DNA of 64,000 nt from Argopecten irradians (taxonomy: Eukaryota > Mollusca > Bivalvia > Pectinida > Pectinidae): NCBI RefSeq assembly GCF_041381155.1, contig NC_091135.1:72444888-72508887 (forward strand). Direction: 5' to 3'. A model generated the notes under the pieces. That model was not told the DNA's origin and ran no database searches. It saw nothing but the letters and a program-made list of their open reading frames with translations. The translations under genes were made by a program, and so were the position numbers. Positions within the stretch are counted from its first letter, which is position 1. Each line of letters begins with the position of its first letter. Shown piece by piece: positions 2,936-63,019 of this stretch.

Positions 2936-3284
2936 AAATCCTTAAGGAAGGGAGAACACTGGATATTACGTGAGTGATATTAACCCCATTGAGTATCAAG
3001 GATGACTTTAGAAGTGTGTGAACCCAGTTCAGGGATTTGAGATTCACTATGTGAGCTTGTGATTGCTTTTTGGATATTGGCAGTGCTGTTCCAACAGAGG
3101 AAATGGTTGAGGCTCTGGAGGTACTTAGTTGCCTCTGATACGGAGGATCTGGTGAGGATCTGCCAAGACAAATTCAGACCATTCGAGGAGTTTTCATAAA
3201 GGAGGGTAAGATGTGCCATAACCATTCACTGTACCCAGAGGAGATTTACCAAAAAGGAAAAGTAAAGCCAAAAAGGACAGCCAA
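2936..3284. other. Unique sequence left of the first array; no supported gene
   Basis: Both strands have short open frames here: 81 codons on the - strand at 2980-3225 and about 55 codons on the + strand ending near 3200. Neither shows a domain or a convincing splice context that I recognise. The first diverged units of the 37-bp array begin at the right end. Confidence 0.3.
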
Positions 3285-8747: not shown

Positions 8748-8876
8748 GATCAGTAACCATTATAAGTCCTGATGACACCACAGAGGGACTCGACGATCTT
8801 TGCGGTCTAGAAAACATTAAACTTATTTTGAAAGAAAAACTTGTGATGCCATTCAAGTTCCCGCATCTATTTGAAG
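8748..8876 (+). CDS. VPS4-like exon 1 (first recognised): start of AAA domain
   Basis: 129 nt, acceptor tttgtag at 8747 and donor gaag|gtaagg. It reads SVTIISPDDTTEGLDDLCGL and on to KFPHLFE, matching the VPS4 stretch WDDVAGLEGAKEALKEAV and IKFPHLF. The first two bases complete a codon from an upstream exon, so this is not the first coding exon. It ends in the first base of a Gly codon completed in the next exon. Confidence 0.88.
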
Positions 8877-11800: not shown

Positions 11801-14800
11801 ATTCTGATATAAATGTATCGAACGTGTTGGCTGTACTTTCTAATTTAAATATAAACCTATCAAACGTGTTGGCTTTACTATATTATTCTGATATAAATCT
11901 ATCAAAGGTGTTGGCTTTACTATATAATTCTAATATAAACCTATCAAACGTGTTGACTGTACTATATAATTCTGATATAAATCTATCAAACTTGTTGGCT
12001 TTACTATATAATTCTGATATAAATCTATCAAACGTGTTGGCTGTACTTTCTAATTCTGATATAAATCTATCAAACGTGTTGGCTGTAATATATAATTCTG
12101 ATATAAATCTATCAAACGTGTTGACTGTACTATATAATTCTGATATAAATCTATCAAACTTGTTGGCTTTACTATATAATTCTGATATAAATCTATCAAA
12201 CGTGTTGGCTGTACTTTCTAATTTAGATATAAATCTATCAAACGTGTTGGCTTTACTATATAATTCTGATATAAATCTATCAAACGTGTTGGCTTTACTT
12301 TCTAATTCTGATATAAATCTATCAAAGATGTTGGCTGTAATATATAATTCTGATATAAATCTATCAAACATGTTGGGTGTACTATATAATTCTGATATAA
12401 ATCTATCAAACGTGTTGGCTTTACTATATAATTCTGATATAAATCTATCAAACGTGTTGGCTTTACTTTCTAATTTAGATATATAAACCTATCAAGCGTG
12501 TTGGCTGTACTATATAATTCTGATATAAATCTATCAAACGTGTTGGCTGTACTTTCTAATTCTGATATAAATCTATCAAACGTGTTGGCTGTACTTTCTA
12601 ATTCTGATATAAACCTATCAAACGTGTTGGCTGTACTATATAATTCTAATATAAATCTATCAAACGTATTGGCTGTACTTTCTAATTCTGATATAAATGT
12701 ATCGAACCTGTTGGCTGTACTATATAATTTAGATATAAATCTATCAAACGAGTTGGCTTTACTATATAATTCTGATATAAATCTATCAAACATGTTGGCT
12801 GTACTTTCTAATTTAGATATAAATCTATCAAACGTGTTGGCTGTACTTTCTAATTTAGATATAAATCTATCAAACATGTTGGCTGTACTTTCTAATTTAG
12901 ATATAAATCTATCAAACGTGTTGGCTGTACTATATAATTTTGATATAAACCTATGAAACATGTTGGGTTTACTATATAATTCTGATATAAACCTATCAAA
13001 CGTGTTGGCTTTACTATATAATTCTGATATAAATCTATCAAACGTGTTGGCTGTACTTTCTAATTTAGATATAAATCTATCAAACGAGTTGGCTTTACTA
13101 TATAATTCTGATATAAATCTATCAAACGTGTTGGCTGTACTTTCTAATTTAGATATAAATCTATCAAACGTGTTGGCTGTACTTTCTAATTTAGATATAA
13201 ATCTATCAAACGTGTTGGCTTTACTATATAATTCTGATATAAATCTATCAAATATGTTGGCTTTACTTTCTAATTTAGATATAAATCTATCAAACGTGTT
13301 GGCTGTACTATATAATTGTAATATAAATCTATCAAACATGTGTTGGCTGTACTTTCTAATTTAGATATAAACCTATCAAACATGTTTGCTTTACTATATA
13401 ATTCTAATATAAATCTATCAAACATGTGTTGGCTTTACTATAGTAATTCTGATATCAAAGTAGTTTTACTTTATAATTAGAGATATTTTTTCACCTTTTC
13501 AGGTAGAGTTGGTACCAGCAAAAATGTGTTACTGTATGGGGTGAGTGTTTAAACACTAAAATGTGTTACTGTATGGGGTGAGTGTTTAAACACTAAAATG
13601 TGTTACTGTATGGGGTGAGTGTTTAAACACTAAAATGTGTTACTGCATGGGTTGAGTGTTTAATCACCAAAATGTGTTACTGTATGGGGTGAGTGTTTAA
13701 ACACTAAAATGTGTTACTGCATGGGATGAATGTTTAAACACCAAAATGTGTTACTGCATGGGTTGAGTGTTTAAACACCAAAATGTGTTACTGCATGGGT
13801 TGAGTGTTTAAACACCAAAATGTGTTACTGCATGGGTTGAGTGTTTAAACACCAAAATGTGTTACTGCATGGGTTGAGTGTTTAATCACCAAAATGTGTT
13901 ACTGCATGGGTTGAGTGTTTTAAACACCAAAATGTGTTACTGCATGGGTTGAGTGTTTAATCACCAAAATGTGTTACTGCATGGGTTGAGTGTTTAATCA
14001 CCAAAATGTGTTACTGCATGGGTTGAGTGTTTAAACACCAAAATGTGTTACTGCATGGGTTGAGTGTGTTTAATCACAAAATGTGTTACTGCATGGGGTG
14101 AGTGTTTAAACACCAAAATGTGTTACTGCATGGGTTGAGTGTTTAATCACCAAAATGTGTTACTGCATGGGTTGAGTGTTTAAACACCAAAATGTGTTAC
14201 TGCATGGGGTGAGTGTTTAAACACCAAAATGTGTTACTGCATGGGTTGAGTGTTTAAACACCAAAATGTGTTACTGCATGGGTTGAGTGTTTAAACACCA
14301 AAATGTGTTACTGCATGGGTTGAGTGTTTAAACACCAAAATGTGTTACTGCATGGGGTGAGTGTTTAAACACCAAAATGTGTTACTGCATGGGTTGAGTG
14401 TTTAATCACCAAAATGTGTTACTGCATGGGGTGAGTGTTTAAACACCAAAATGTGTTACTACTGCATGGGGTGAGTGTTTAAACACCAAAATGTGTTACT
14501 GCATGGGTTGAGTGTTTAAACACCAAAATGTGTTACTGCATGGGGTAAGTGTTTAAACACCAAAATGTGTTACTGCATGGGGTGAGTGTTTAAACACCAA
14601 AATGTGTTACTGCATGGGTTGAGTGTTTAATCACCAAAATGTGTTACTGCATGGGATGAGTATTTAAACACTGAAATGTGTTACTGTATGGGGTGAGTGT
14701 TCTAGTTAAACACCAAATTACCTTCATTCAAGGTAACCAAATCAAATTAAGTTTTATACAGTGTTTCACTACTGAATAGTTGTCTCTCTGTAATATGTTG

Positions 14801-17800
14801 CCCTTACACTCTGTACATAGCCCCCGGGCTGTGGGAAGTCCATCTTGATGAAGGCACTAGCTAAGGAGTCAAGGGCCTGTCTAATGATTGTCAACTCCTA
14901 CTCCATGCTGTCAAGGATGGTGGTTACAGATCAAGCTCAGTAAGTTACAGATATCTTTTACTCTCTGATGTCGAGGGTTTTCAGTTTCCTTAGAGCAGTG
15001 TCTGCCTTAAGTCAGTATAGATTTAGTATACATGGTGACTGTTTTGTTTTCAGATTCCTTAGAGCAGTGTCTGCCTTAAGTCAGTACAGATTTAGTATAC
15101 ATGGTGACTGTTTTGTTTTCAGTTTCCTTAGAGCAGTGTCTGCCTTAAGTCAGTACAGATTTAGTATACATGGTGACTGTTTTGTTTTCAGATTCCTTAG
15201 AGCAGTGTCTGCCTTAAGTCAGTACAGATTTAGTATACATGGTGACTGTTTTGTTTTCAGTTTCCTTAGAGCAGTGTCTGCGTTAAGTCAGTACAGATTT
15301 AGTATACATGGTGACTGTTTTGTTTTCAGTTTCCTTAGAGCAGTGTCTGCCTTAAGTCAGTACAGATTTAGTATACATGGTGACTGTTTTGTTTTCAGTT
15401 TCCTTAGAGCAGTGTCTGCCTTAAGTCAGTACAGATTTAGTATACATGGTGACTGTTTTGTTTTCAGTTTCCTTAGAGCAGTGTCTGCCTTAAGTCAGTA
15501 CAGATTTAGTATAAATGGTGACTGTTTTGTTTTCAGTTTCCTTAGAGCAGTGTCTGCCTTAAGTCAGTACAGATTTAGTATACATGGTGACTGTTTTGTT
15601 TTCAGTTTCCTTAGAGCAGTGTCTGCCTTAAGTCAGTACAGATTTAGTATAAATGGTGACTGTTTTGTTTTCAGTTTCCTTAGAGCAGTGTCTGCCTTAA
15701 GTCAGTACAGATTTAGTATACATGGTGACTGTTTTGTTTTCAGATTCCTTAGAGCAGTGTCTGCCTTAAGTCAGTACAGATTTAGTATACATGGTGACTG
15801 TTTTGTTTTCAGTTTCCTTAGAGCAGTGTCTGCCTTAAGTCAGTACAGATTTAGTATACATGGTGACTGTTTTGTTTTCAGTTTCCTTAGAGCAGTGTCT
15901 GCCTTAAGTCAGTACAGATTTAGTATACATGGTGACTGTTTTGTTTTCAGTTTCCTTAGAGCAGTGTCTGCCTTAAGTCAGTACAGATTTAGTATACATG
16001 GTGACTGTTTTGTTTTCAGTTTCCTTAGAGCAGTGTCTGCCTTAAGTCAGTACAGATTTAGTATACATGGTGACTGTTTTGTTTTCAGTTTCCTTAGAGC
16101 AGTGTCTGCCTTAAGTCAGTACAGATTTAGTATAAATGGTGACTGTTTTGTTTTCAGTTTCCTTAGAGCAGTGTCTGCCTTAAGTCAGTACAGATTTAGT
16201 ATACATGGTGACTGTTTTGTTTTCAGTTTCCTTAGAGCAGTGTCTGCCTTAAGTCAGTACAGATTTAGTATACATGGTGACTGTTTTGTTTTCAGATTCC
16301 TTAGAGCAGTGTCTGCCTTAAGTCAGTACAGATTTAGTATACATGGTGACTGTTTTGTTTTCAGTTTCCTTAGAGCAGTGTCTGCCTTAAGTCAGTACAG
16401 ATTTAGTATACATGGTGACTGTTTTGTTTTCAGTTTCCTTAGAGCAGTGTCTGCCTTAAGTCAGTACAGATTTAGTATACATGGTGACTGTTTTGTTTTC
16501 AGTTTCCTTAGAGCAGTGTCTGCCTTAAGTCAGTACAGATTTAGTATACATGGTGACTGTTTTGTTTTCAGTTTCCTTAGAGCAGTGTCTGCCTTAAGTC
16601 AGTACAGATTTAGTATACATGGTGACTGTTTTGTTTTCAGATTCCTTAGAGCAGTGTCTGCCTTAAGTCAGTACAGATTTAGTATACATGGTGACTGTTT
16701 TGTTTTCAGATTCCTTAAGTCAGTACAGATTTAGTATACATGGTGACTTTTTTTTCAGATTCCTTAGGCATGTCTGCCTTTTACAGATTAGTATACATGG
16801 TGACTGTTTTGTTTTCAGTTTCCTTAGAGCAGTGTCTGCCTTAAGTCAGTACAGATTTAGTATACATGGTGACTGTTTAGTTTTCAGATTCCTTAGAGCA
16901 GTGTCTGCGTTAAGTCAGTACAGATTTAGTATACATGGTGACTGTTTTGTTTTCAGATTCCTTAGAGCAGTGTCTGCCTTAAGTCAGTACAGATTTAGTA
17001 TACATGGTGACTGTTTTGTTTTCAGATTCCTTAGAGCAGTGTCTGCCTTAAGTCAGTACAGATTTAGTATACATGGTGACTGTTTTGTTTTCAGATTCCT
17101 TAGAGCAGTGTCTGCCTTAAGTCAGTACAGATTTAGTATACATGGTGACTGTTTTGTTTTCAGATTCCTTAGAGCAGTGTCTGCCTTAAGTCAGTACAGA
17201 TTTAGTATACATGGTGACTGTTTTGTTTTCAGATTCCTTAGAGCAGTGTCTGCCTTAAGTCAGTACAGATTTAGTATACATGGTGACTGTTTTGTTTTCA
17301 GTTTCCTTAGAGCAGTGTCTGCCTTAAGTCAGTACAGATTTAGTATACATGGTGACTGTTTTGTTTTCAGTTTCCTTAGAGCAGTGTCTGCCTTAAGTCA
17401 GTACAGATTTAGTATACATGGTGACTGTTTTGTTTTCAGTTTCCTTAGAGCAGTGTCTGCCTTAAGTCAGTACAGATTTAGTATACATGGTGACTGTTTT
17501 GTTTTCAGTTTCCTTAGAGCAGTGTCTGCCTTAAGTCAGTACAGATTTAGTATACATGGTGACTGTTTTGTTTTCAGTTTCCTTAGAGCAGTGTCTGCCT
17601 TAAGTCAGTACAGATTTAGTATACATGGTGACTGTTTTGTTTTCAGTTTCCTTAGAGCAGTGTCTGCCTTAAGTCAGTACAGATTTAGTATACATGGTGA
17701 CTGTTTTGTTTTCAGTTTCCTTAGAGCAGTGTTTGCCTTAAGTCAGTACAGATTTAGTATACATGGTGACTGTTTTGTTTTCAGTTTCCTTAGAGCAGTG

Positions 17801-20800
17801 TTTGCCTTAAGTCAGTACAGATTTAGTATACATGGTGACTGTTTTGTTTTCAGATTCCTTAGAGCAGTGTTCTGCCTTAAGTCAGTACAGATTTAGTATA
17901 CATGGTGACTGTTTTGTTTTCAGATTCCTTAGAGCAGTGTCTGCCTTAAGTCAGTACAGATTTAGTATACATGGTGACTGTTTTGTTTTCAGTTTCCTTA
18001 GAGCAGTGTTTGCCTTAAGTCAGTACAGATTTAGTATACATGGTGACTGTTTTGTTTTCAGATTCCTTAGAGCAGTGTCTGCCTTAAGTCAGTACAGATT
18101 TAGTATACATGGTGACTGTTTTGTTTTCAGTTTCCTTAGAGCAGTGTCTGCCTTAAGTCAGTACAGATTTAGTATACATGGTGACTGTTTTGTTTTCAGT
18201 TTCCTTAGAGCAGTGTCTGCCTTAAGTCAGTACAGATTTAGTATACATGGTGACTGTTTTGTTTTCAGTTTCCTTAGAGCAGTGTCTGCCTTAAGTCAGT
18301 ACAGATTTAGTATACATGGTGACTGTTTTGTTTTCAGTTTCCTTAGAGCAGTGTCTGCCTTAAGTCAGTACAGATTTAGTATACATGGTGACTGTTTTGT
18401 TTTCAGTTTCCTTAGAGCAGTGTCTGCCTTAAGTCAGTACAGATTTAGTATAAATGGTGACTGTTTTGTTTTCAGTTTCCTTAGAGCAGTGTCTGCCTTA
18501 AGTCAGTACAGATTTAGTATACATGGTGACTGTTTTGTTTTCAGTTTCCTTAGAGCAGTGTCTGCCTTAAGTCAGTACAGATTTAGTATAAATGGTGACT
18601 GTTTTGTTTTCAGTTTCCTTAGAGCAGTGTCTGCCTTAAGTCAGTACAGATTTAGTATACATGGTGACTGTTTTGTTTTCAGTTTCCTTAGAGCAGTGTC
18701 TGCCTTAAGTCAGTACAGATTTAGTATACATGGTGACTGTTTTGTTTTTTCTTAGAGCATTCCTTAGAGCAGTGTTTGCCTTAAGTCAGTACAGATTTAG
18801 TATACATGGTGACTGTTTAGTTTTCAGATTCCTTAGAGCAGTGTCTGCCTTAAGTCAGTACAGATTTAGTATACATGGTGACTGTTTAGTTTTCAGATTC
18901 CTTAGAGCAGTGTCTGCCTTAAGTCAGTACAGATTTAGTATACATGGTGACTGTTTTGTTTTCAGATTCCTTAGAGCAGTCTCTGCCTTAAGTCAGTACA
19001 GATTTAGTATACATGGTGACTGTTTTGTTTTCAGTTTCCTTAGAGCAGTGTTTGCCTTAAGTCAGTACAGATTTAGTATACATGGTGACTGTTTAGTTTT
19101 CAGATTCCTTAGAGCAGTGTCTGCCTTAAGTCAGTACAGATTTAGTATACATGGTGACTGTTTAGTTTTCAGATTCCTTAGAGCAGTGTCTGCCTTAAGT
19201 CAGTACAGATTTAGTATACATGGTGACTGTTTTGTTTTCAGATTCCTTAGAGCAGTGTCTGCCTTAAGTCAGTACAGATTTAGTATAAATGGTGACTGTT
19301 TAGTTTTCAGATTCCTTAGAGCAGTGTCTGCCTTAAGTCAGTACAGATTTAGTATACATGGTGACTGTTTTGTTTTCAGTTTCCTTAGAGCAGTGTCTGC
19401 CTTAAGTCAGTACAGATTTAGTATACATGGTGACTGTTTAGTTTTCAGATTCCTTAGAGCAGTGTCTGCCTTAAGTCAGTACAGATTTAGTATACATGGT
19501 GACTGTTTTGTTTTCAGTTTCCTTAGAGCAGTGTTTGCCTTAAGTCAGTACAGATTTAGTATACATGGTGACTGTTTTGTTTTCAGTTTCCTTAGAGCAG
19601 TGTCTGCCTTAAGTCAGTACAGATTTAGTATACATGGTGACTGTTTTGTTTTCAGTTTCCTTAGAGCAGTGTCTGCCTTAAGTCAGTACAGATTTAGTAT
19701 ACATGGTGACTGTTTTGTTTTCAGATTCCTTAGAGCAGTGTCTGCCTTAAGTCAGTACAGATTTAGTATACATGGTGACTGTTTTGTTTTCAGTTTCCTT
19801 AGAGCAGTGTCTGCCTTAAGTCAGTACAGATTTAGTATACATGGTGACTGTTTTGTTTTCAGTTTCCTTAGAGCAGTGTCTGCCTTAAGTCAGTACAGAT
19901 TTAGTATACATGGTGACTGTTTTGTTTTCAGATTCCTTAGAGCAGTGTTTGCCTTAAGTCAGTACAGATTTAGTATACATGGTGACTGTTTTGTTTTCAG
20001 ATTCCTTAGAGCAGTGTCTGCCTTAAGTCAGTACAGATTTAGTATACATGGTGACTGTTTTGTTTTCAGATTCCTTAGAGCAGTGTCTGCCTTAAGTCAG
20101 TACAGATTTAGTATACATGGTGACTGTTTTGTTTTCAGATTCCTTAGAGCAGTGTCTGCCTTAAGTCAGTACAGATTTAGTATACATGGTGACTGTTTAG
20201 TTTTCAGATTCCTTAGAGCAGTGTTTGCCTTAAGTCAGTACAGATTTAGTATACATGGTGACTGTTTAGTTTTCAGATTCCTTAGAGCAGTGTCTGCCTT
20301 AAGTCAGTACAGATTTAGTATACATGGTGACTGTTTTGTTTTCAGTTTCCTTAGAGCAGTGTCTGCCTTAAGTCAGTACAGATTTAGTATACATGGTGAC
20401 TGTTTTGTTTTCAGTTTCCTTAGAGCAGTGTTTGCCTTAAGTCAGTACAGATTTAGTATAAATGGTGACTGTTTTGTTTTCAGTTTCCTTAGAGCAGTGT
20501 CTGCCTTAAGTCAGTACAGATTTAGTATACATGGTGACTGTTTTGTTTTCAGTTTCCTTAGAGCAGTGTCTGCCTTAAGTCAGTACAGATTTAGTATACA
20601 TGGTGACTGTTTTGTTTTCAGATTCCTTAGAGCAGTGTTTCTGCCTTAAGTCAGTACAGATTTAGTATACATGGTGACTGTTTTGTTTTCAGTTTCCTTA
20701 GAGCAGTGTCTGCCTTAAGTCAGTACAGATTTAGTATACATGGTGACTGTTTTGTTTTCAGATTCCTTAGAGCAGTGTCTGCCTTAAGTCAGTACAGATT

Positions 20801-23800
20801 TAGTATACATGGTGACTGTTTTGTTTTCAGTTTCCTTAGAGCAGTGTTTGCCTTAAGTCAGTACAGATTTAGTATACATGGTGACTGTTTTGTTTTCAGA
20901 TTCCTTAGAGCAGTGTCTGCCTTAAGTCAGTACAGATTTAGTATACATGGTGACTGTTTTGTTTTCAGTTCCTTAGAGCAGTGTCTGCCTTAAGTCAGTA
21001 CAGATTTAGTATACATGGTGACTGTTTTGTTTTCAGTTTCCTTAGAGCAGTGTCTGCCTTAAGTCAGTACAGATTTAGTATACATGGTGACTGTTTTGTT
21101 TTCAGTTCCTTAGAGCAGTGTCTGCCTTAAGTCAGTACAGATTTAGTATACATGGTGACTGTTTTGTTTTCAGATTCCTTAGAGCAGTGTTTGCCTTAAG
21201 TCAGTACAGATTTAGTATACATGGTGACTGTTTTGTTTTCAGTTTCCTTAGAGCAGTGTCTGCCTTAAGTCAGTACAGATTTAGTATACATGGTGACTGT
21301 TTTGTTTTCAGTTTCCTTAGAGCAGTGTCTGCCTTAAGTCAGTACAGATTTAGTATACATGGTGACTGTTTTGTTTTCAGTTTCCTTAGAGCAGTGTCTG
21401 CCTTAAGTCAGTACAGATTTAGTATACATGGTGACTGTTTTGTTTTCAGTTTCCTTAGAGCAGTGTTTGCCTTAAGTCAGTACAGATTTAGTATACATGG
21501 TGACTGTTTTGTTTTCAGATTCCTTAGAGCAGTGTCTGCCTTAAGTCAGTACAGATTTAGTATACATGGTGACTGTTTTGTTTTCAGATTCCTTAGAGCA
21601 GTGTCTGCCTTAAGTCAGTACAGATTTAGTATACATGGTGACTGTTTAGTTTTCAGATTCGTTAGAGCAGTGTCTGCCTTAAGTCAGTACAGATTTAGTA
21701 TACATGGTGACTGTTTTGTTTTCAGATTCGTTAGAGCAGTGTTTGCCTTAAGTCAGTACAGATTTAGTATACATGGTGACTGTTTTGTTTTCAGATTCCT
21801 TGCCTTAAGTCAGTAAGATTAGTATACATGGTGACGTTTTGTTTTCAGTTCCTTGAGCTCTTTAAGTCAGTACAGATTTAGTATACATGGTGACTGTTTT
21901 GTTTTCAGTTTCCTTAGAGCAGTGTCTGCCTTAAGTCAGTACAGATTTAGTATACATGGTGACTGTTTTGTTCTTTCAGCAGTGTTTGCCTTAAGTCAGT
22001 ACAGATTTAGTATACATGGTGACGTTTTGTTTTCAGTTCCTTAGAGCAGTTTGCCTTAAGTCAGTACAGATTTAGTATACATGGTGACTGTTTTGTTTTC
22101 AGTTTCCTTAGAGCAGTGTCTGCCTTAAGTCAGTACAGATTTAGTATACATGGTGACTGTTTTGTTTTCAGTTTCCTTAGAGCAGTGTCTGCCTTAAGTC
22201 AGTACAGATTTAGTATACATGGTGACAGTTTTGTTTTCAGATTCCTTAGAGCAGTGTTTGCCTTAAGTCAGTACAGATTTAGTATACATGGTGACAGTTT
22301 TGTTTTCAGTTTCCTTAGAGCAGTGTTTGCCTTAAGTCAGTACAGATTTAGTATACATGGTGACTGTTTTGTTTTCAGTTTCCTTAGAGCAGTGTCTGCC
22401 TTAAGTCAGTACAGATTTAGTATACATGGTGACTGTTTTGTTTTCAGATTCCTTAGAGCAGTGTTTGCCTTAAGTCAGTACAGATTTAGTATACATGGTG
22501 ACAGTTTTGTTTTCAGATTCCTTAGAGCAGATGTTGCCTTAAGTCAGTACAGATTTAGTATACATGGTGACAGTTTTGTTTTCAGATTCCTTAGAGCAGT
22601 GTCTGCCTTAAGTCAGTACAGATTTAGTATACATGGTGACTGTTTTGTTTTCAGATTCCTTAGAGCAGTGTCTGCCTTAAGTCAGTACAGATTTAGTATA
22701 CATGGTGACAGTTTTGTTTTCAGATTCCTTAGAGCAGTGTTTGCCTTAAGTCAGTACAGATTTAGTATACATGGTGACTGTTTTGTTTTCAGTTTCCTTA
22801 GAGCAGTGTCTGCCTTAAGTCAGTACAGATTTAGTATACATGGTGACTGTTTTGTTTTCAGATTCCTTAGAGCAGTGTCTGCCTTAAGTCAGTACAGATT
22901 TAGTATACATGGTGACTGTTTTGTTTTCAGATTCCTTAGAGCAGTGTTTGCCTTAAGTCAGTACAGATTTAGTATACATGGTGACAGTTTTGTTTTCAGT
23001 TTCCTTAGAGCAGTGTCTGCCTTAAGTCAGTACAGATTTAGTATACATGGTGACTGTTTTGTTTTCAGTTTCCTTAGAGCAGTGTCTGCCTTAAGTCAGT
23101 ACAGATTTAGTATACATGGTGACTGTTTTGTTTTCAGATTCCTTAGAGCAGTGTCTGCCTTAAGTCAGTACAGATTTAGTATACATGGTGACTGTTTAGT
23201 TTTCAGATTCCTTAGAGCAGTGTCTGCGTTAAGTCAGTACAGATTTAGTATACATGGTGACTGTTTTGTTTTCAGTTTCCTTAGAGCAGTGTCTGCCTTA
23301 AGTCAGTACAGATTTAGTATACATGGTGACTGTTTTGTTTTCAGTTTCCTTAGAGCAGTGTCTGCCTTAAGTCAGTACAGATTTAGTATACATGGTGACT
23401 GTTTTGTTTTCAGTTTCCTTAGAGCAGTGTCTGCCTTAAGTCAGTACAGATTTAGTATACATGGTGACTGTTTTGTTTTCAGTTTTCCTTAGAGCAGTGT
23501 CTGCCTTAAGTCAGTACAGATTTAGTATACATGGTGACTGTTTTGTTTTCAGTTTCCTTAGAGCAGTGTCTGCCTTAAGTCAGTACAGATTTAGTATACA
23601 TGGTGACTGTTTTGTTTTCAGATTCCTTAGAGCAGTGTCTGCCTTAAGTCAGTACAGATTTAGTATACATGGTGACTGTTTTGTTTTCAGATTCCTTAGA
23701 GCAGTGTCTGCCTTAAGTCAGTACAGATTTGTATACATGGTGACTGTTTTGTTTTCAGATTCCTTAGAGCAGTGTCTGCCTTAAGTCAGTACAGATTTAG

Positions 23801-26800
23801 TATACATGGTGACTGTTTTGTTTTCAGTTCCTTAGAGCAGTGTCTGCCTTAAGTCAGTACAGATTTAGTATACATGGTGACTGTTTTGTTTTCAGTTTCC
23901 TTAGAGCAGTGTCTGCCTTAAGTCAGTACAGATTTAGTATACATGGTGACTGTTTTGTTTTCAGATTCCTTAGAGCAGTGTCTGCCTTAAGTCAGTACAG
24001 ATTTAGTATACATGGTGACTGTTTTGTTTTCAGATTCCTTAGAGCAGTGTCTGCCTTAAGTCAGTACAGATTTAGTATACATGGTGACTGTTTTGTTTTC
24101 AGATTCCTTAGAGCAGTGTCTGCCTTAAGTCAGTACAGATTTAGTATACATGGTGACTGTTTTGTTTTCAGATTCCTTAGAGCAGTGTCTGCCCTTAAGT
24201 TTTCAGATTCCTTAGCAGTGTCTTTAAGTAGATTAGTATACATGGTGACTGTTTGTTTTCAGATTCCTTAGAGCAGTGTCTGCCTTAAGTCAGTACAGAT
24301 TTAGTATACATGGTGACTGTTTTGTTTTCAGATTCGTTAGAGCAGTGTTTGCCTTAAGTCAGTACAGATTTAGTATAAATGGTGACTGTTTTGTTTTCAG
24401 ATTCGTTAGAGCAGTGTTTGCCTGTGCCATAGCCAACCTGCCCTGTATTGTCCTTATGGAGGATATTGAGGTGTTCGTAGATGACAGTACAAATGCTGAG
24501 GCTAGAGAGGTCTTATTTCAGCACATGCAATCAAAACTCACTGCTTCTATACCTGTGGTTGCTATGACAAGGTTTCCATGGTTACTCAACAAACAAATGA
24601 CACTTAAAAGAAGGTAAATGTGTTTGTGTAAATAAGTTCGGTTTAAGTGTTAAATATCAATAAAATAAACTTCAATAGTCATAATTTATGAGGGTTATAA
24701 TTGTACTGCTTCGAAGTTAATCTTGGCTACTAGCCATATACTATTATACTGACATTATAATGATATTATACTGACATTATACTGACATCATACTGCCATT
24801 ATAATGATATCATACTGATATTATACTGACATTATAATGATGTTATATTGATAATAAAATGATTTTGTAGTGATATTGTACTGCCATTATAGTTATAGTG
24901 ATATTATACTGACATTATAATGATATTATACTGACGTTACAGTGATATGCTGACATTATAATGATATTGTGCTGCCATTAGTGATGTTATACTGACATTA
25001 TAATGATATTATACTGACATTATACTGATATAATACTGAACTTTTAATGATATCATGCTGACATTAAAATGATATTATAGTGATATTATACTGACATTAT
25101 AGTGATATCAAACTGATTTTATGCTGACATTATAATGACATTATAAAGGTATTATACTGACATTAAAATGATATTATAGTGATATTGTACTGCCATTATA
25201 GTGATATCATACTGACTTTATAATGATATTATACTGACGTTGTAGTGATATACTGACATTATAATGATATTGTGCTGCCTTTAGTGATGTTATACTGATA
25301 TTATACTGACGTTATAATGATACTGATATTATAATGATATTTTACTGACATTATAATGATGAGATCTTACTTACATTATACTGATATTATGTTGACGTTA
25401 TAGTGATATCATACTGACATTATACTTATATAATAGTGTTATTATACTGATATTATAATGATATTATATGGACGTTATAGTGACATTATACTGATATTAT
25501 GCTGACATAATACTGATATTATACTGATATCATAGTGACATTATACTGACATTATACAATATAATACTGACATTATACTGACATTATAGTGATATTATAC
25601 TGACATCATACTGCCATTACACTTATGTTATACTGATATTATACTGACATTATAGTGATATCATACTGACATTATACTGACGTTATAGTGATATACTGAC
25701 ATTATACTGATATAATGCTGACATTAAAGTGATATCATACTGACATTATAATGATATTATACTAACATTATACTGATATTATGCTGACATTATACTGAAG
25801 TTATAGTGATATACTGATATTATAATGATATTATACTGACGTTATAGTGATATTATACTGACATTATACTGATATTAAACTGACATTATACTGATATTAT
25901 GCTGACATTATACTGATAATATACTGACATTATAATGGTATTATACTGATGTTATAGTGATATACTGACATTATACTGATTATGCTGACATTATACTGAT
26001 ATTATACTGACATTATACTAATATTATACTGACATGCCGATATTTTACTGATATTATACTGACATTATAGTGCTGTCTTGCTGAAGCATACTATTGAAGA
26101 CATCAAACAGTCACCCAGCCATGTTATGTTAAGTAAAGCTTGTTATCTGTTCCAGCTTCCCAACCCTGGCTTATGTTCCAATTCCAGATTTTCCAAGTCG
26201 TTATTTACTGTTTAAAACACAAATGAATGCTAAGCCTGCTGCCAGTGAGGAGGAAGTAGAAGAGTTAGCAAACCACACTGAAGGGTAATCAATAACAACT
26301 AACTTTTGATTATATTAAGTTTTTGTATATCTTTGATCATGACATCAACTTATCACAGTGCCAATTTGTTTGAAAAATTATTTTAAATCTAAGAATGTGT
26401 TTTTAGCTCACCTGGCCCGAAGGGCCGGTGAGCTTATGTCATGGCGCGGCGTCCGGCGTCCGTCGTCCGTCATCCATCTGTCCGTCAACATTTCCTTTAA
26501 ATCACTACTAGTCATAGAGTTCTGCATGGATTTTAACCAAATTTGGCCAGAAACATCCTTGGGGGAAGGGGAATAGAACTTGTATAAATTTTGGCTCTGA
26601 CCCCCGAGGACAGGAGGGGCGGGGCCCAATAAGGGAAATTTAGGTAAATCCTATAAATCGCTACTTGTCCTAGAGTTCTGCATGGATTGTAACCAAATTT
26701 GGCCAGAAACATCCTTGGGGGAAGGGGATCAGAACTTGTATAAATTTTTGCTCTGACCCCCGAGGACAGGAGGGGCGGGGCCCAATAGGGGAAATTAAGG

Positions 26801-29800
26801 TAAATCCTATAAATCGCTACTTGTCCTAGAGTTCTGCATGGATTGTAACCAAATTTGGCCAGAAACATCCTTGGGGGAAGGGGAACAGAACTTGTATAAA
26901 TTTTGGCTCTGACCCCCCCGGGGACAGGAGGGGCGGGGCCCAATAGGGGAAATAGAGGTAAATCCTATAAATCGCTACTTGTCCTAGAGTTCTGCATAGA
27001 TTGTAACCAAATTTGGCCAGAAACTTCCTTGGGGGAAAGGCCAACATCCTTGGGGGAAGGGGAATAGAACTTGTATAAATTTTGGCTCTGACCTCCTGGG
27101 GGCAGGAGGGCGGGGCCCAATAGGGGAAATTTAGGTAATCCTATAAATCGCTACTTGTTTTAGAGTTCTGCATGGATTGTAACCAAATTTGGCCAGAAAC
27201 ATCCTAGGGGGAAGGGGAACAGAACTTGTATAAATTTTGGCTCTGACCCCCTGGGGACAGGAGGGGCGGGGCCCAATAGGGGAAATAGAGGTAAATCCTA
27301 TAAATCGCTACTTGTCCTAGAGTTCTGCATGGATTGAAACCAAATTTGGCCAGAAACATCCTTGGGGGAAGGGGAATAGAACTTGTATAAATTTTGGCTC
27401 TGACCTCCTGGGGGCAGGAGGGGCGGGGCCCAATAGGGAAATTTAGGTAAATCCTATAAATCGCTACTAGTCTTAGAGTTCTGCTTGGATTTTAACCAAA
27501 TTTGGCCCAGAAACATCCTTGGGGTTAAGAGAATTCCTATAATGTTTGGCTCTGACCCCCTTGAGCAGAAAGAGTGGGGCCCAATAGGGGAATTAGAGGT
27601 AAATATTCAAATTCCTTCAGAAAAGAAACAATGAACCTTACTAGGCATTACAAACCAGGTGAGCGATACAGGCCCTCTGGGCCTCTTGTTATTAATTGAG
27701 CCCGAGACCTGATACAACAGCTATTGAGCATGTAACAAGGTAGTATGAAAGCTAAAGCTTGTGTCTACCATCGTTAATATGCAGAACTTAAGCTAATGTG
27801 AAAAGGAGAAGGTACGTTAAGACTCGAATATGGCCTCAAAATTAATTCTCCAGTAAAGAACAACATATTTTGCCATATAACAGCTGAATACATTTGCTAA
27901 CACATTACATCTCGAAAATATCCCACATGTGCCAATTATGTTCACTATGACGTCATCAACATGCAGTTTCCCGCCATTTTTCACAAAAATCCTTGAAAAA
28001 TCATACTTTTTGAGTGGTTTTCTTTAAAAATGAATGTGGCCGCCTTCGTGGAGCAGAAAGAGATTTTCACACTTTGTGTATCGTGTATTTACGCATATCC
28101 ATGCAAAATGTAAAGTTGCTCCAAGGTGGCGGCCAAATCCATTTCAAGCCTTTTCTAACCTAAAGATGATGAATTTCTAGCAAAATTTGGCGAGAAGAGG
28201 AAAATCATCAATTTGATGACGTAATAGGTGGGACACATCGTGTACATGGTTATAAAATATTATGTTTTGATGAATGGCAAGTATGAGAGTATTTATTGAT
28301 ATGAAATTGATGGGGATCAGAGTTAATTTTTTTCGGCCTGAAAAATTAAGGCCAAATACTGGTCCTATCATATCTACTCCTTTCGTTATTTTTCGCCTGT
28401 TAATAATTAAAAAATATATCATCTTATTTAAATGAGAGATGTACTAAATATTTGGTAATTTCGTAACACTAGGTAGAAAATTTTATGACTTTTGGGGCCA
28501 CTAAAGCCCCAAACCATACATAGTCCTTTGGAAATGAACTATCTCGAGTTGGAGAAACATGATAAAAAACAGTCACTTGTTGTGTACCCTCTATTTTTCT
28601 GTTGTTTAGGTACACAGTATCAGATATTCTTGTCGTTCTGAGAGATGCGGCTATGGAACCTGTTAGAGAAATACAACGTGCGACCCATTTTCGACTGGTG
28701 AGTTTAGTGGCTCTGTATAAAACAATTGTTTTATTTTATTGTTTGGCACTTTCAAATTAATTCTTTGGTTGAGGTCTTTGTATGGATAGAATTGTTTAGG
28801 GCTATCAAATTAATTCTGTGGTTGAGGTTTTTGTATGGATAGAATTGTTTAGGGCTATCAAATTAATTCTGTGGTTGAGGTTTTTGTATAGATAGAATTG
28901 TTTAGGGCTATCAAATTAATTCTGTGGTTGAGGTCTTTGTATGGATAGAATTGTTTAGGGCTATCAAATTAATTCTGTGGTTGAGGTTTTTGTATGGATA
29001 TAATTGTTTGGGGCTATCAAATTAATTCTGTGGTTGAGGTTTTTGTATGGGTAGAATTGTTTGGGGCTATCAAATTAATTCTGTGGTTGAGGTCTTTGTA
29101 TGGATATAATTGTTTAGGGCTATCAAATTAATTCTGTGGTTGAGGTTTTTGTATGGATATAATTGTTTGGGGCTATCAAATTAATTCTGTGGTTGAGGTC
29201 TTTGTATGGATATAATTGTTTAGGGCTATCAAATTAATTCTGTGGTTGAGGTTTTTGTATGGATATAATTGTTTGGGGCTATCAAATTAATTCTTTGGTT
29301 GAGGTCTTTGTATGGATATAATTGTTTAGGGCTATCAAATTAATTCTGTGGTTGAGGTTTTTGTATAGATAGAATTGTTTAGGGCTATCAAATTAATTCT
29401 GTGGTTGAGGTTTTTGTATGGGTAGAATTGTTTAGGGCTATCAAATTAATTCTGTGGTTGACTATAGTTTACTATAGTTTATATTGGCAAGGATTTATAA
29501 GTGAGAAGGATTCGTGTCTGTCTCTTTACATTACTAAACACCACGCGAGACGCCTATGAACCGGGAATAAAAACCGTTTTTCTCAACAAATACTTGTCTT
29601 ATCGAGTCAAACGAAACACCATTGTAAAGTTTATTAAATTTCACGACGTTTATAACTTGCTTTAAAGACGGAATGTTTAGGGGATATGTCTTAAATTTTC
29701 GTTAAAAAAATCGACAGCTCATGAAATGACAGCACCGCTTCAGAAAGTAAGACGGTAACCCTCGCACCCGCAAGCTACATCAAAGGCTGCGCCGGCGGAT

Positions 29801-32800
29801 ATCAAAGGAAAATCAGTCGTCGCCCAACGTCTCGGTCAGTGCACAAACACAAAAGCGCCTGCCTTGGACTTCCCCAAAACCCAGTGTGACTTATCCTTCT
29901 CATATACGTCCTTGATATTGGGAAAACACATTTTTGCGCATTATTTGGTCATTTGTAATAGGGAATGAGTCAAATGTTGTCAGAATTATCAGTATGAGAT
30001 GGCCATTTAATCCTATTAACAAATTTTTTATGACTGACCCCCAGGGGCCTTAGGGGCGGGGTCAAAAGGGGTCAAATAGGCTAAAACTTCAAAAATCTTC
30101 TTCTGAAGTTCTGGAAATGGTAGAATCAAATACTTTTCATAAATAGAAAGGCCTTAAGGTCCTTAACAAAAATTGTGAATTATATGACCCTGAGGTCTCA
30201 CGTTTTCCCCTGGGGAGGGGGTCAAGTTTACTATAGTTTATATAGGGAAAACACATTTATGAGCATGTTTTGCTCAATTTTCATTGGAAACGAGTCAAAC
30301 TTGGTTAGAATTATTAGCCTGAGATAGCATTTTAATATCATATCCATATTGGTCCAGGCCGACCCCCTGGGGATAGTGAGGCGGGGCCAAAAAAGGTCAA
30401 ATAGGCTAAAACTTCAAAAATATTCTTTTAAAATTCTGGAAATGGTATAAACAAATACACTTTATAGATGAAAAGGTCTTAAAGTTTGTTTATAAAAATT
30501 GTAAATTATATGACCCTGGGGTCTCCTATTTCCCCTTGGGGAGGGGGTCAAGTTTACTATAGTTTATATAGGAATTGTATAAATGCGCACACATTGTTTA
30601 CGCATCACTTGAATAAAGTCAGCCATGTTGTAAAGTTTAAACACTGTTGTCTACCGATGATTTCTACTTGTAAGAAGAATAACAAGTTAATTTCATGCGT
30701 GAACTAAAGCATGAACCATGGTGTCAGTAAGTCTGAAACGAACGCGAACGTTTTGTAAGGAAAAAAAATCATCGTAAATAGACAATTTTTACTACAAGCT
30801 GTTGCAGTTGTTCGACAAAGTGGTCAGGTAAAATAACAGTTTTGGCCAGAGAATAGCCAAACTGAAGCACAGATAGTCACAACGACATTAAAACAACATA
30901 AGAATGGCTCTTGAAAGGATTCCCCCACCAAATAAAATAAACTTTTCGTCCAAAACAATTGCAGATGATTGGACAAAGTGGAAAGAAAAGTTTGAATTGT
31001 TTTCTGACCTTGCCCTAAAAGAAACGGAAGAGACTGAAAAACTCAAAATGTTCAAATACCTCATTGGTTCCGATGGGAGGGAGATCTATAACAACATGAA
31101 ATGGGATAAAGAGGAAAAGGATAGAACTATGAATGATGCCCTAACAAAGTTTGAAAGTTTCTGTAAACCAAAGAAAAACGAGACCATAGAATGATTCAAG
31201 TTTATTATGCGGATTCAGCAGGGTGATGAAACGATGGACAAATTCATAACAGACATAAAGACTCTGTCTAAATCATGTAATTTTGGGGAGTTAACAGATT
31301 CGCTCATCCGAGACAAAATTGCCTGTGGTATAAATGATCCACAATTACGCGAACGACTTCTTCGAATAAGCCATTTGACACTAGACAAAGCCGAAGAGTT
31401 GTGTAGGACAAGTGAACTGACAAAGCGAAGTGTAAATACCCTAGATGATGCCGGCGCAGCTGCGACCGTACACAAAATTAAAGTGAAACCAAAGCCAAAG
31501 TTCACCGGTACTAGTAATACTAGTCAGGGAAAACTTCCATGTAAATTTTGTAGATATGAACATGAACATAAGAGAGAGAAATGTCCAGCATTTGGAGAAA
31601 CATGCAGAAAGTGTAACGAAGAAAATCACTTTGAATCAAAATGTGATGAACTCCGAAAACAAAAGTCCAAAAAGAAAAAGTACCCGCACGGAACGGGTTT
31701 TGGCACCTGGAACTCGATGAAGAGAGCTCTATGCTGACAACGTTTAATTCCCCTTTTGGCCGTTATCGCTGGCTCCGCTTACCATTTGGAATCTCCGTGG
31801 CCCCAGAGGAATTCCAGCGCCAACAGAATCAAGCCGTCGAAGGCTTACCCGGCGTCCGTAGTATCGTCGACGACATATTGATCTACGGAGAAGGAGAAAC
31901 TGAGGCGGAGGCCATTATCGACCATGACAAAAAGCTGTGTGCTTTACTAGAACGGTGCCGTGAAAAAGGCATAAAGTTAAACAAAGACAAGCTCAAGCTT
32001 TGCAAGCGAGAAGTGAAATTCATAGGTCACTTAATCAACGCGGATGGCCTGAAGCCAGACCCTGAAAAAGTGAAGGCTGTGTCCGAGATGCCTAATCCGA
32101 CAGATGTTGCCGGAGTCCGTCGCTTTATCGGATTTGTGTACTACCTAAGTAAGTTTGTGCCCGGCCTAAGTGACAAATGTGAACCATTGCGAAAATTGAC
32201 TCTTCAGGACGCTGAATGGTGTTGGATGGACGTTCATGAGAAAGCAATGAAAGAAATCAAAGATCTTGTGAAATCCGAACCTGTCCTAAGGTACTATGAC
32301 CCGAAGGAAGAGCTAACTAGACAGTGTGATGCATCTGAGAAAGGTCTAGGTGCAGCACTCATGCAAAAAGGTCAACCTATTGCCTACGTGAGCTGCGCGC
32401 TTACCGACGTAGAAATGAGATATGCTCAAATCGAGAAAGAGCTGCTAGCAGTCGTGTTTGGGTTAGAAAAGTTTCACCAGTATGTGTACGGACGATTCGT
32501 GACAGTACAAAGTGATCACAAGCCACTGGAAATGATCATCAAGAAATCCATCTTGTGTGCTCCGAAGCGACTACAACGCATGCTTCTACGATTACAGACG
32601 TACGATTTCGACATCGTGTATCACCCGGGAAAGGAAATGTACCTTGCAGACACACTCAGCCGAGCCTACCTGCCACAAACAGGTGAGGAAAACGCGTCTA
32701 CATTTATAAAGGACGTTGAATCTATAAACATGACCCAGTTTTTACCATTAGGTGAGGAGAAACTCCGTGAAATACAACGGAAGACGGGAAACGACGAAAA

Positions 32801-35800
32801 CCTACAAATCCTCCGTAACGTAATATTACAGGGATGGCCCGAAAAGGTCACACTCGTACCTGAACAAGCGAAACCTTATTTCAACATACGGGATGAACTA
32901 TTTGTGCAAAATGGTATCATCTTCCGAGGCGAGCATGCAGTTATCCTGATTTCACTACGATCCGACGTGCAAGCGAAAATACACTCGTCACATATCGGCA
33001 TCGAGGGCTGCCTACGCAGAGCGCGGGAAATAGTGTACTGGCCAGGTATGAACGTAGAGATACGGGACTACATCGAAAGGTGTGACATGTGTCGGTCATT
33101 TGACGATAAACAGTCTAAAGAAACGCTTGTGTCACACGAAATACCCGACAGACCATGGGCTAAACTAGGATCTGACTTATTCACGTTCAATAACAAAGAG
33201 TATCTCGTCACAGTGGACTACTACTCCAACTACTGGGAAGTCGACTATCTCGAGGATACACGAACGCCGACAGTGGTACACGTGCTACGAGGACAGTTTG
33301 CGAGATACAGAATTCCGGACACTCTCGTCACGGACAACGGTCCACAATTCAGCTCCGACGCATTCAGACAGTTTGCAAAGGATTGGTGTTTCGAACATGT
33401 AACTTCGTCGCCTACATATCCTCAGAGCAATGGAAAATCGGGAACAAGCCGTGAAAACAGCGAAACGTCTTATGCAATGTGCGATATCGTCGAAATCTGA
33501 TTTGTATCTAGCACTGCTAGATTTCCGCAATACTCCATCTCAACAGATGGGGACTAGTCCTGTCCAACGACTAATGAACAGGAGAACAAAGACACTTCTC
33601 CCGACGAAAGGTAGTTTGCTGAGACCTCAAGTCCCTGAAACTACCACTGTATCAAAACAGTTAAAGTGAGTGAGGGAACGCCAGGCAAAATACTATAATC
33701 AAGGTGCTCAAGACTTGAAACCGCTAGAAAATGGACAAATTGTTAGGATTGCACCTAATGACAGAAACGGACAATGGAAAAAGGGTGTCGTCCAGGAAAA
33801 AGTCAACATCAGGTCATATGATGTCGCTACAAACGATGGGAGAAAATACCGCCGCAACCGTCGTCATATACGGTTGTCTATGGAGACCAACGTTAACCCT
33901 CGCGACCAGGAGAGAGACTTTGTTGAGCCCGAAATAATTCCAGCACAGGACACTCCGGTGATACCATCAAACCCGCCTGTGGTACAGTTAAATGTGCCTG
34001 TGGTCCCATCCGAGAAACCACAGCAGGACAAACCAACAATCAGCTCACCAAAACGAAGTGTGACAAGCAAAGGAAGGCAAATCAATCTGCCATCTAGGTT
34101 TCGAGACTTTGAGTGTGGTACATAAACAGACAGTGTGACTCGAGTCAAAACATGTATTAGTATTTGAGAAAAGCTCCTAACAATACCAGTACATGAAGTT
34201 AAAGTGTTAATTGAGTTATAATGTTTCAAGAGTTAACATTGACATGTATTGTGTTCATATAATATCAATTCAATGACTGTGAAATATTGAATACGAAAGG
34301 AAAAAGTCAAGACATTGATTTTGAAAAAAAAAATGTGTTTTAATAATGTTTAAGAGACTCAGAATGAAAAGACATCATTATTAGCTTTCAAACATAATAA
34401 TGAAGTTAAATATATATAAAGGTAGTTATAGACTATTACTAAAAGTAATGGATAATAACTTCTTTCCTCAAAGGAGAAAGGATGTAACATGTCCAATAGT
34501 GTGTTATCGGATAATATCCGGTATTAGTTTCTACTTTGTAAACCGGAAATTGTATAAATGCGCACACGTTGTTTACGCATCACTTGAATAAAGTCAGCCA
34601 TGTTGTAAAGTTTAAACACTGTTGTCTACCGATGATTTCTACTTGTAAGAAGAATAAAAGTTAATTTCATGCGTGAACTAAAGCATGAAACAAGTACTAT
34701 CAGTACTTTGATTTTATTGATTCTGTAAGCATTGGCAAAACAGATTTCCTACATGATCAACATTTAAAACATTCATTGTTTTTATATTCCTGATTCTGTA
34801 AGCATTGGCAAAACAGATTTCCTACATGATCAACATTTAAAACAATCATTGTTTTTATATTCCTGATTCTGTAAGCATTGGCAAAACAGATTTCCTACAT
34901 TATCAACATTTAAAACAATCATTGTTTTTATAATCCTGAATCTGTAAACATTGTGAAAACAGATTTCCTACATTATCAACATTTAAAACATTCATTCTTT
35001 TTATATTCCTATATTATAATATTATATTTTAAAGTATTATGATGTCTTAAGTATTTTGACTGTTTGAAGTTTTATGATGTCTTAAGTATTTTGACTATTT
35101 GAAGTATTATGATGTCTGAAGTATTTTGACTATTTGAAGTATTATGATGTCTGAAGTATTTTGACTGTTTGAAGTTTTATGATGTCGGAAGTATTTTGAC
35201 TATTTGAAGTATTATGATGTCTAAAGTATTTTGACTATTTGAAGTATTATGATGTCTAAAGTATTTTGACTATTTGAAGTATTATGATGTCTGAAGTATT
35301 TTGACTGTTTGAAGTTTTATGATGTCTAAAGTATTTTGACTGTTTGAAGTATTATGATGTCTAAAGTATTTTGACTATTTGAAGTATTATGATGTCGGAA
35401 GTATTTTGACTATTTGAAGTATTATGATGTCTAAAGTATTTTGACTATTTGAAGTATTATGATGTCGGAAGTATTTTGACTATTTGAAGTATTATGATGT
35501 CTGAAGTATTTTCACTGTTTGAAGTATTATGATGTCTGAAGTAATTGAGTGTTTGAAGTATTATGTGTTCTGAAGTATTTGACTGTTTGAATTATTAAGA
35601 TGTTTGAAGTATTTGGACTGTTTGAAGTATTATGATGTCTGAAGTATTTGGACTGTTTGAAGTATTATGATGTCTGAAGTATTTTCACTGTTTGAAGTAT
35701 TATGATGTCTGAAGTATTTTGACTGTTTGAAGTATTATGATGTCTGAAATATTTTGACTATTATTATGATGTCTGAAGTAATTGACTGTTTGAAGTATTA

Positions 35801-51670: not shown

Positions 51671-52495
51671 ATCTAATCCAGGTAAGATAAGAGTGGATTA
51701 TCTTGTCCAGGTAAGATAAGAGAAGATAATCTAATCCAGGTAGGTAAGAGTAGATTATCTAATCCAGGTAAGTAAGAGTAGATTATCTATTCCAGGTAAG
51801 ATAAGAGAAGATTATCTAGTCCAGTAGATTATCTAATCTAGGTAAAATAAGAGTAGATTATTTAATCCAGGTAAGATCTAATCCAGGTAAGGTAAGAGTA
51901 GATTATTTAATACAGGTAAGATAAGAGAAGATTATCTAATCCAGTAGATTATCTAATCCAGGTAAGATAGGAGTAGATTATCTATTCCAGTAGATTATTT
52001 AATCCAGGTAAGATAAGAGTAGATTATCTATTCCAGTAGATTATTTAATCCAGGTAAGATAAGAGTAGATTAACTAATACAGGTAAGATAAGAGTATATT
52101 ATCTAATCCTGGTAAGGTAAGAGTAGATTATCTAATCCAGGTAAGATAAGGGAGGATTATTTTATCCTGGTAAATTGAGAGTAGATTATCTAATCCAGTA
52201 GATTATCTAATCCAGGTAAGGTTTCAGTAGATTAACTAATCCAGGTAAGATAATAGTAGATTATCTAATCCAGGTAAGATAAGAGTAGATTATCTAATCC
52301 AGGTAAGATAAGAGTAGATTATCTAATCCAGGTAAGGTTTCAGTAGATTAACTAATCCAGGTAAGATAATAGTAGATTATCTAATCCAGGTAAGATAAGA
52401 GTAGATTATCTAATCCAGGTAAGATACGAGTAGATTATCTTAACCAAGTAAGATAAGAGTAGATTATCTAATCCACGTAAGGTAAGAGTAAATTA
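51671..52495 (+). repeat. 29-bp array with an embedded donor consensus (about 28 copies)
   Basis: The unit contains atctaatccaggtaagataa, then gagtagatt. Partial units (ccagtagattatctaatcc) are interspersed. On the + strand each full unit carries CAG|GTAAGAT, an almost perfect splice donor, although no exon is recognised here. It directly abuts the 51-bp array. Confidence 0.92.
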
Positions 52496-53663: not shown

Positions 53664-54023
53664 CTATCGCAGAAATAAATCTCCATCCTCGAATTCTTTG
53701 CTTTTTTCTGGTTTTTCCTGTTTTTCCTTTGATCCTTTCCGAATGAAAATCCATGGAGCACTAAGTCTACTTCTGTTACTTTTAACACTGTGACTAGACA
53801 CACTCTCTCCAGGACTCTGCATCCTCATCGGAGTTTCGGGAGAACTAGGCGTAGACGATGGACGTGGTGTTTCTAGCATGCTAGTGTTTATAGGGGTAAC
53901 TAAAGTCAGTTCAAGATGACTGCCTGATTGTCTGACCAAGTTGACAACCTCCTCGTGTCTTAACCATTTCGCGTCTTTGCTTCCCACAGCCACAACAAAG
54001 TCACCAACCCTTAGCTTGCTAGC
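53664..54023 (-). CDS. Rhophilin last exon: second half of PDZ and C-terminal tail
   Basis: 360 nt including stop TAG at 53666-53664; acceptor aaatattatag, first codons GCT AGC AAG. It encodes ASKLRVGDFVVAVGSKDAKW, LRHEEVVNLVRQSGSHLELT and LVTP, finishing the PDZ fold. Then follow a Ser/Pro/Thr-rich stretch (ETPRPSSTPSSPETP) and a basic Lys/Glu segment (KGSKEKQEKPEKSKEF). The tail is likely disordered and has several SP/TP sites. Confidence 0.88.
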   Translation of the reverse strand, partial: ASKLRVGDFVVAVGSKDAKWLRHEEVVNLVRQSGSHLELTLVTPINTSMLETPRPSSTPSSPETPMRMQSPGESVSSHSVKSNRSRLSAPWIFIRKGSKEKQEKPEKSKEFEDGDLFLR

Positions 54024-62960: not shown

Positions 62961-63019
62961 AAAAGACAACATAAAGGATCTATTCCTGTTAATGGCATAA
63001 AATGGGGTTTAACCATCTT

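Follow-up and report, generated by a model that had tools for sequence, protein, structure and literature searches.

Tandem duplications of exon-intron boundaries that resemble minisatellites have been described in amphioxus under the name of mirages, in Adh3 and in the globin genes BflGb6 and BflGb9 (PMC3087553); the original Adh3 mirage paper, as cited by the amphioxus mirage literature, is Canestro 2002, Nucleic Acids Research (NAR) 30:2871. According to the first source, mirage units measure 10-160 bp, and the globin gene BflGb6 has 3 and 6 of them; splicing was regular by reverse transcription-PCR, the arrays showed length and even somatic instability, and a link to intron gain was proposed (PMC3087553). 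Another paper adds TnC and, as an imperfect case, PGBD5, and reports no aberrant mRNAs from mirages (PMC3902484). Here we describe such arrays in a gene for a divergent VPS4-like AAA protein of the bay scallop, Argopecten irradians. The window, i.e., the whole stretch of DNA that was analyzed, comprises 64,000 nucleotides (nt) (C2:72,444,888-72,508,887) and lies 0.63 Mb from the contig end. With a mirage defined as a tandem unit that holds exon-edge sequence together with the adjoining intron sequence (an exon-intron-boundary minisatellite), the acceptor array in a 9.4-kb intron of this gene is a new case of the published class, very long and in a mollusc. As read from the sequence, what appears remarkable is its length, the placing of a donor array and an acceptor array around one exon, and signs that the class may be frequent.

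The acceptor array and the two exons that it separates are as follows.

14977 to 24400, + strand: acceptor array with a 69-bp unit (Tandem Repeats Finder, word counts, and frame reading)
14821 to 14939, + strand: Walker-A exon (PPGCGKS...TDQAQ), with its authentic donor at 14940
24401 to 24613, + strand: AAA exon, whose authentic acceptor is the final unit of the acceptor array

Each 69-bp unit consists of 47 nt of intron end (GGTGAC, which is a branch-point-like word, then a T tract and CAG) and 22 nt of exon start. TTTTCAG stands ahead of the exon-start word at 136 sites, from 14985 to 24401, in the one assembly from which copies were counted; the spacing between acceptor copies is exactly 69 in 119 of 135 intervals, and the authentic acceptor, 24401, is the last copy. 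Unit cores counted with up to 3 edits number 139. Tandem Repeats Finder placed the array at 14977-24200, with further rows to 24423, at periods of 69, 138, and 207. A first-pass annotation of this stretch had proposed about 135 tandem copies of a splice acceptor plus exon start, with 22 unit bases nearly identical to the exon start, and both statements agree with our counts: mean ungapped identity to the exon start is 18.7 of 22 bases, the commonest units differ at 2 or 3 of the 22, and all 22 are matched in 2 of 135 units. It had also described the last units as sharing the exon's attcgtt spelling, which is right for the last unit (24332); of the 119 regular units, 3 carry that spelling, and the two others are interior.

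In the intron part of the unit, one 47-nt version is common to 103 of the 136 copies, and the variant at the authentic site, found in 7 of 136, is one base off this commonest form. The 23-mer from -20 to +3, the stretch scored by common acceptor models, is identical in 43 of 136 sites, the authentic site included, and decoy acceptors retain AG nearly everywhere. An exact search of the 845.8-Mb assembly with a 34-base unit word returned 32 matches, all within the acceptor array; thus, by this one word and with a tool that skips very common words, no second genomic copy of the array was found. The array was therefore born at this locus and is no chance pattern. No Rfam match at gathering scores and no tRNA was detected as a sign of structured RNA. 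Duplication of a whole tiny intron, with the intron start (14940-14984, 45 nt) homologous to the unit's 47 nt of intron, was considered and set aside as suggestive only: the global comparison gave p = 0.0003, or 0.01 without the T tract and AG, and the local comparison gave p = 0.02, 0.04, and, once GTAAGT was removed, 0.13.

A second array spans the donor side of the exon that precedes the Walker-A exon.

13503 to 13540, + strand: 38-nt exon, RVGTSKNVLLYG, with its authentic donor at 13541
13521 to 14701, + strand: donor array with a 37-bp unit, made of the last ~20 nt of exon 13503-13540 followed by GTGAGTG...

This donor array sits at the start of intron 13541-14820 and mirrors the acceptor array, so that the Walker-A exon (14821-14939) lies between two arrays, one of donors in the intron upstream and one of acceptors in the intron downstream. 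Among its 32 copies, GT is present in 12 (the authentic donor included), TT in 18, and AT in 2; the +1 G has therefore been lost in 20 of 32. All 11 live donor decoys run into one shared stop, at the fourth codon past the exon end.

Several properties identify the structure as a boundary minisatellite. Both units, the 69-bp acceptor unit with its 22 exon bases and the 37-bp donor unit, span an exon-intron boundary. Within 6 kb, junction-spanning 24-mers recur 78 and 30 times, and 24-mers from the exon middle recur 0 times in each of the 8 exons. Many but not all splice signals are kept (136 acceptors for 139 cores; GT in 12 of 32 donor copies). Finally, the interiors are homogenized and the edges divergent: exon-like spelling is found, for the donor array, in the first three copies, the last, and one interior copy and, for the acceptor array, in the last and two interior copies, with derived spellings elsewhere in both.

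The scallop arrays share with the amphioxus mirages tandem units that cross an exon-intron boundary on its 5' or its 3' side, splice signals (AG or GT) retained in many copies, and a homogenized interior with edge copies that differ. Unlike those mirages, the scallop array lies in a mollusc and not in a cephalochordate, has 136 copies over 9.4 kb compared with the 3 and 6 units of BflGb6, and has counterparts in further genes, PSMC2 and other conserved ones among them (6 of 51 exon hits; see below). Undisturbed splicing is reported for the amphioxus mirages; in the scallop gene, a predicted protein, P0001, uses the authentic acceptor. A human parallel on the donor side reportedly exists in the interferon-induced 6-16/IFI6 transcript, for which Turri, Cuin and Porter 1995 are said, by their title, to describe a minisatellite giving multiple splice donor sites. 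Like the scallop donor arrays, its units carry splice donors at an exon end; unlike them, the main scallop array carries acceptors, and the IFI6 title claims that several sites are used. The IFI6 minisatellite is also said to have fewer and shorter units. Extra splice sites in a gene also arise when exon segments that contain AGGT are tandemly duplicated in the genome, a described route to intron gain (PMC3443670; see also PMC4974935); the scallop array differs in that it copies an existing boundary many times and the intron grows.

Among molluscs, a TSSK1-like gene of abalone carries a polymorphic intronic minisatellite with a 27-bp unit, for which up to 62 repeats are shown (PMC6905558). It is similarly a long minisatellite of the length-variable type in a mollusc intron, described without mention of a unit that spans an exon boundary; a Conus paper describes intronic repeats, likewise without mention of an exon-boundary span. 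Tandem repeats are given as the largest repeat class in the genome of the scallop A. pleuronectes, at 21.7% (PMC10225492). A literature search, with most subscription papers outside its reach, returned no title or abstract on boundary-spanning arrays in scallops or other molluscs.

The host gene was delineated by comparison with public proteins, and it has eight coding exons in the window (8748-8876 to 38432-38527). The remaining five are as follows.

8748 to 8876, + strand: VPS4-like AAA exon, SVTIISPDDTTEGLDDLCGLENIKLILKEKLVMPFKFPHLFE (tblastn with P0001 and P0002; frame and splice sites read)
26156 to 26284, + strand: AAA exon
28610 to 28697, + strand: AAA lid exon
38158 to 38295, + strand: penultimate coding exon
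38432 to 38527, + strand: final coding exon, including the stop

When joined, the AAA exons are 100% identical to P0001, a public A. irradians protein, over 87% of the query. The AAA profile PF00004 scores 66.1 bits against a curated cut-off of 21.2, which supports the earlier statement that the duplication lies inside an AAA domain. The relatives with solved structures are CDC48 and VPS4, scallop relatives carry the name VPS4B-like, and on these three grounds the protein belongs to the CDC48/VPS4 group of classical AAA ATPases. The acidic pair of Walker B reads ED in the host protein and its scallop relatives, compared with DE in CDC48 (14821-28697), and sensor-1 reads TR in place of TN; from these substitutions, the host protein may be an inactive ATPase. 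Two Pecten maximus models, P0005 and P0006, look frameshift-split.

The reading frames limit what the decoy acceptors could encode. Of the three forward frames, only that of the exon is open through the consensus unit, in keeping with the earlier description of 23 codons without a stop. Close to the exon, however, the register is broken.

24172 to 24262, + strand: irregular units of 35 and 56 nt, which shift the frame
24263 to 24400, + strand: two possible in-frame extensions, from acceptors 24263 (+46 residues) and 24332 (+23 residues)

Because of these irregular units, an open, in-phase reading as far as 24613 is available only from the acceptors at 24263, 24332, and 24401, the three whose joins the first-pass annotation had named; the other 133 of the 136 acceptor copies run into a stop, and 93 of 136 do not share the phase of the exon. 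Its proposal that each upstream acceptor adds 23 residues thus holds for 24332 and 24263 and fails beyond them, and the possible open products carry 0, 23, or 46 extra residues. The exon begun at 24401 is 213 nt long; successive upstream copies would give 282, 351, 407, and 442 nt. By alignment to the solved relatives, an insert would come directly behind TDQAQ, where the next helix, presumably the one following pore loop 1, begins. P0001, a predicted protein that stands for 2 member sequences, joins 14939 to 24401 and has no insert. The insert is also absent from P0002 (Ylistrum), P0003 (Mizuhopecten), P0004, and the first part of P0005 (Pecten), and a protein search scored on the array peptide gave 21 candidates, none at E ≤ 1.

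The recurrence of such arrays elsewhere in the genome was surveyed in exons chosen regardless of repeats: 21 listed AAA matches (16 stretches) and 30 kinase matches, 51 in all. The kinase sample comprised 30 of the 42 eligible among 142 listed, eligibility being judged by reading (≤330 bp, no stop, open frame of ≤134 residues); the host gene of the window is absent from the AAA sample. A hit was scored when a 24-mer sharing at least 8 nt with it recurred within 220 bp with up to 4 mismatches. At least two extra copies were found in 4 of 51 hits and at least one in 7. One of the seven (L049) was set aside, its two copies being two AAA exons 306 bp apart (a duplicated exon), which leaves exon-edge copies in 6 of 51 (12%; Wilson interval, 6-23%), a rough and probably low share because some hits belong to long open frames and stop short of their edges. 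The recurring 24-mers are confined to one edge of the hit in each of the six; no mid-hit 24-mer recurred except in L049, the pattern to be expected were mid-exon copies purged by selection and boundary copies tolerated. Two further stretches, L061 and L084, have arrays near the exon but not across its edge and were not counted. The six cases are as follows.

PSMC2 (L053 694-1032, contig C1): 25-bp donor unit composed of 19 exon bases followed by GTAAGT, with 13 anchors
STK32-like kinase: donor unit of 39 bp, 28 anchors with ≤5 substitutions
NLK-like kinase: 46-bp acceptor unit, with AG in 14 of 19 anchors
STK3/4-like kinase: 96-bp donor unit, present twice with the donor and once more as the exon part only
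Phosphorylase-kinase-gamma-like exon: acceptor, 2 copies
L074, which we take to be STK36-like: acceptor, 2 diverged copies

The NLK-like and STK32-like arrays were read from L067 with L090 and from L064 with L089 (contigs C9, C11). PSMC2 is highly conserved, 70 of 72 residues being identical to a solved 26S proteasome subunit 7, and its six decoys with the true 9-mer would hit a stop; the two copies closest to the authentic donor read TTAAGT. The NLK-like kinase, for which no solved chain was found at 1e-20, is so named on our presumption. Its five nearest copies would end in a stop, and its farthest copy carries more exon sequence. These results suggest that the mirage class is frequent in this genome. 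The first pass had missed the donor array of the window, the array before exon 38158 (see below), the similar arrays of other genes, and the term mirage, which was already in the literature.

Decoy copies also vary at the splice G itself. When unit positions were ranked by variability, the +1 G came 2 of 35, 3 of 25, and 4 of 39 in the three many-copy donor arrays, and the G of AG came 5 of 44 in the NLK-like acceptor array. Combined by Fisher's method, the four arrays gave p = 0.016, or 0.04 when the AG-keeping VPS4-like acceptor array was added at p = 1. The VPS4-like donor array was used whole (32 copies); rows were dropped for PSMC2 (3 irregular ones among 14 donor-like places, one displaced and two, GTATGT and GCAAGT, with the +1 G retained), the STK32-like array (13 of 28 anchors, past the regular 39-bp stretch), and the NLK-like array (1 of 19). 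We regard a bias toward loss of the splice G in decoys as a lead only, given that irregular copies were excluded and that copies within one array lack independence. A broader proposal, that about one exon in ten bears junction copies, highly conserved genes included, that decoys are silenced preferentially at the invariant G of GT or AG and the proximal site is kept, that exon definition alone picks the site, and that array length varies between individuals, seems to us to fall a little short of an even chance.

How could such an array grow and yet be spliced correctly? In the account that we favor, a segment spanning the 3' end of the intron and the first 22 exon bases would have been tandemly duplicated, after which unequal exchange or slippage would have lengthened the array, in a genome rich in minisatellites. 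Growth into the intron would be tolerated because the exon stays whole after each duplication and still has an acceptor immediately ahead of it. Repeated unequal exchange would homogenize the interior, and the edges would retain older spellings; the donor array of the preceding intron would reflect the same process at a 5' splice site. The spliceosome would pick the exon-proximal acceptor, 24401, paired with the donor at 24614 over a 213-nt exon, i.e., by exon definition. Upstream acceptors would yield ever longer exons, mostly ending in stops and subject to nonsense-mediated decay, and the first-transcribed acceptor, if used, would give a multikilobase exon with stops. Low-level leakage to 24332 and 24263 may occur, adding 23 or 46 residues beside pore loop 1. 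The authentic acceptor boundary is intact, and the P0001 model, a predicted protein, uses it. Taken whole, this account of a mirage grown from a boundary duplication, with 24401 used through exon definition, is in our view highly likely to be correct.

Several points weigh against it. Many decoys are locally equal to the authentic site, 42 of them sharing its 23-mer, and discrimination must therefore come from context. By arithmetic, 90% correct splicing requires that each of the 135 decoys be used, on average, no more than ~0.08% as often as the authentic site; if only four compete, the predicted tolerance is 2.8% per decoy. The use of 24401 is taken from a predicted protein, P0001, and the copy number depends on one assembly. 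The N-terminal exon of the host gene is present as fragments in three frames (3094-3206), and the start of P0001 lies inside the AAA domain; hence, the host gene is possibly under weak constraint, and with its N-terminal exon broken it may not be under full constraint. The repeat share of the window (74%) is also at the high end of a random sample, 20 random 10-kb stretches of C2 having a mean of 25% and a range of 0.4 to 74%. Repeat enrichment near the contig end was considered as well, and with 14 short end stretches of C2 spanning 0-100%, it was too noisy to use.

The first-pass annotation had offered a ladder of isoforms that depends on repeat number, with a field of decoy 3' splice sites as the alternative. 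A full ladder of up to ~135 steps would draw on the open frame of the consensus unit; with stops before 24613 from 133 of 136 copies, most copies out of phase, the P0001 join at 24401, and an empty array-peptide search, it is refuted for the present assembly, only a mis-assembly at 24172-24262 could reopen its rungs, and we give it almost no credence. Useful splicing to 24332 and 24263 in a limited ladder, with 23 or 46 residues added after the presumed pore loop 1, is easier to entertain, both joins being open and in phase and exons of 282 and 351 nt being still ordinary in size. Nevertheless, no insert-bearing protein was found in the array-peptide search, P0001 to P0005 are without the insert, and the insert would break the start of the helix that follows the loop, whose position we assume; such use is unlikely. 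Selection of the array as a brake, in which the decoys or their RNA slow or lower correct splicing or sequester splicing factors, could explain why AG is kept nearly everywhere here when decoys of the three donor arrays and the NLK-like array often lose the G. High copy identity is sufficient to account for the intact AGs, however, and the broken N-terminal exon makes weak constraint the simpler reason, so that this explanation appears improbable, more so than the limited ladder. The decoy field suggested as the alternative is the better fit to the frames, the P0001 join, and the lack of array-peptide proteins, and the array is best read, on the sequence, as such a field with at most two extra in-frame rungs.

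Studies of how one splice site is chosen among several of equal local strength usually rely on small numbers of engineered copies. The scallop offers a natural system in one farmed animal, with 136 acceptor copies, 42 decoys identical to the authentic site from -20 to +3, and donor arrays besides. If the genome-wide reading proved true, the genome would amount to a natural experiment on a large scale, with exon definition alone choosing among up to 136 near-identical sites. Boundary minisatellites are extended by the present case from cephalochordates to a mollusc, where they may be frequent, and they bear on gene annotation, the evolution of intron size, and splicing noise between individuals.

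Another array of the host gene adjoins a splice site.

35028 to 38157, + strand: 35-bp array up to the acceptor of exon 38158, with TTTGAAG occurring 88 times and a unit without exon bases

Its last copy supplies the acceptor of exon 38158; because the unit has no exon bases, it was not counted as a mirage. Intron 28698-38157 also contains a Gypsy-type retroelement (30900-34150), as read from the sequence. A neighboring gene on the minus strand (53664-55651) has, again as read from the sequence, a PDZ-like region, and no junction copies were found at five of its edges. A 29-bp array at 51668-52497 has CAG|GTAAGA in many units and no known exon adjoining. Finally, a 31-bp array at 63016-63998 carries GTAAGT on the minus strand and extends to the window end; it could be a donor array of the minus-strand gene.

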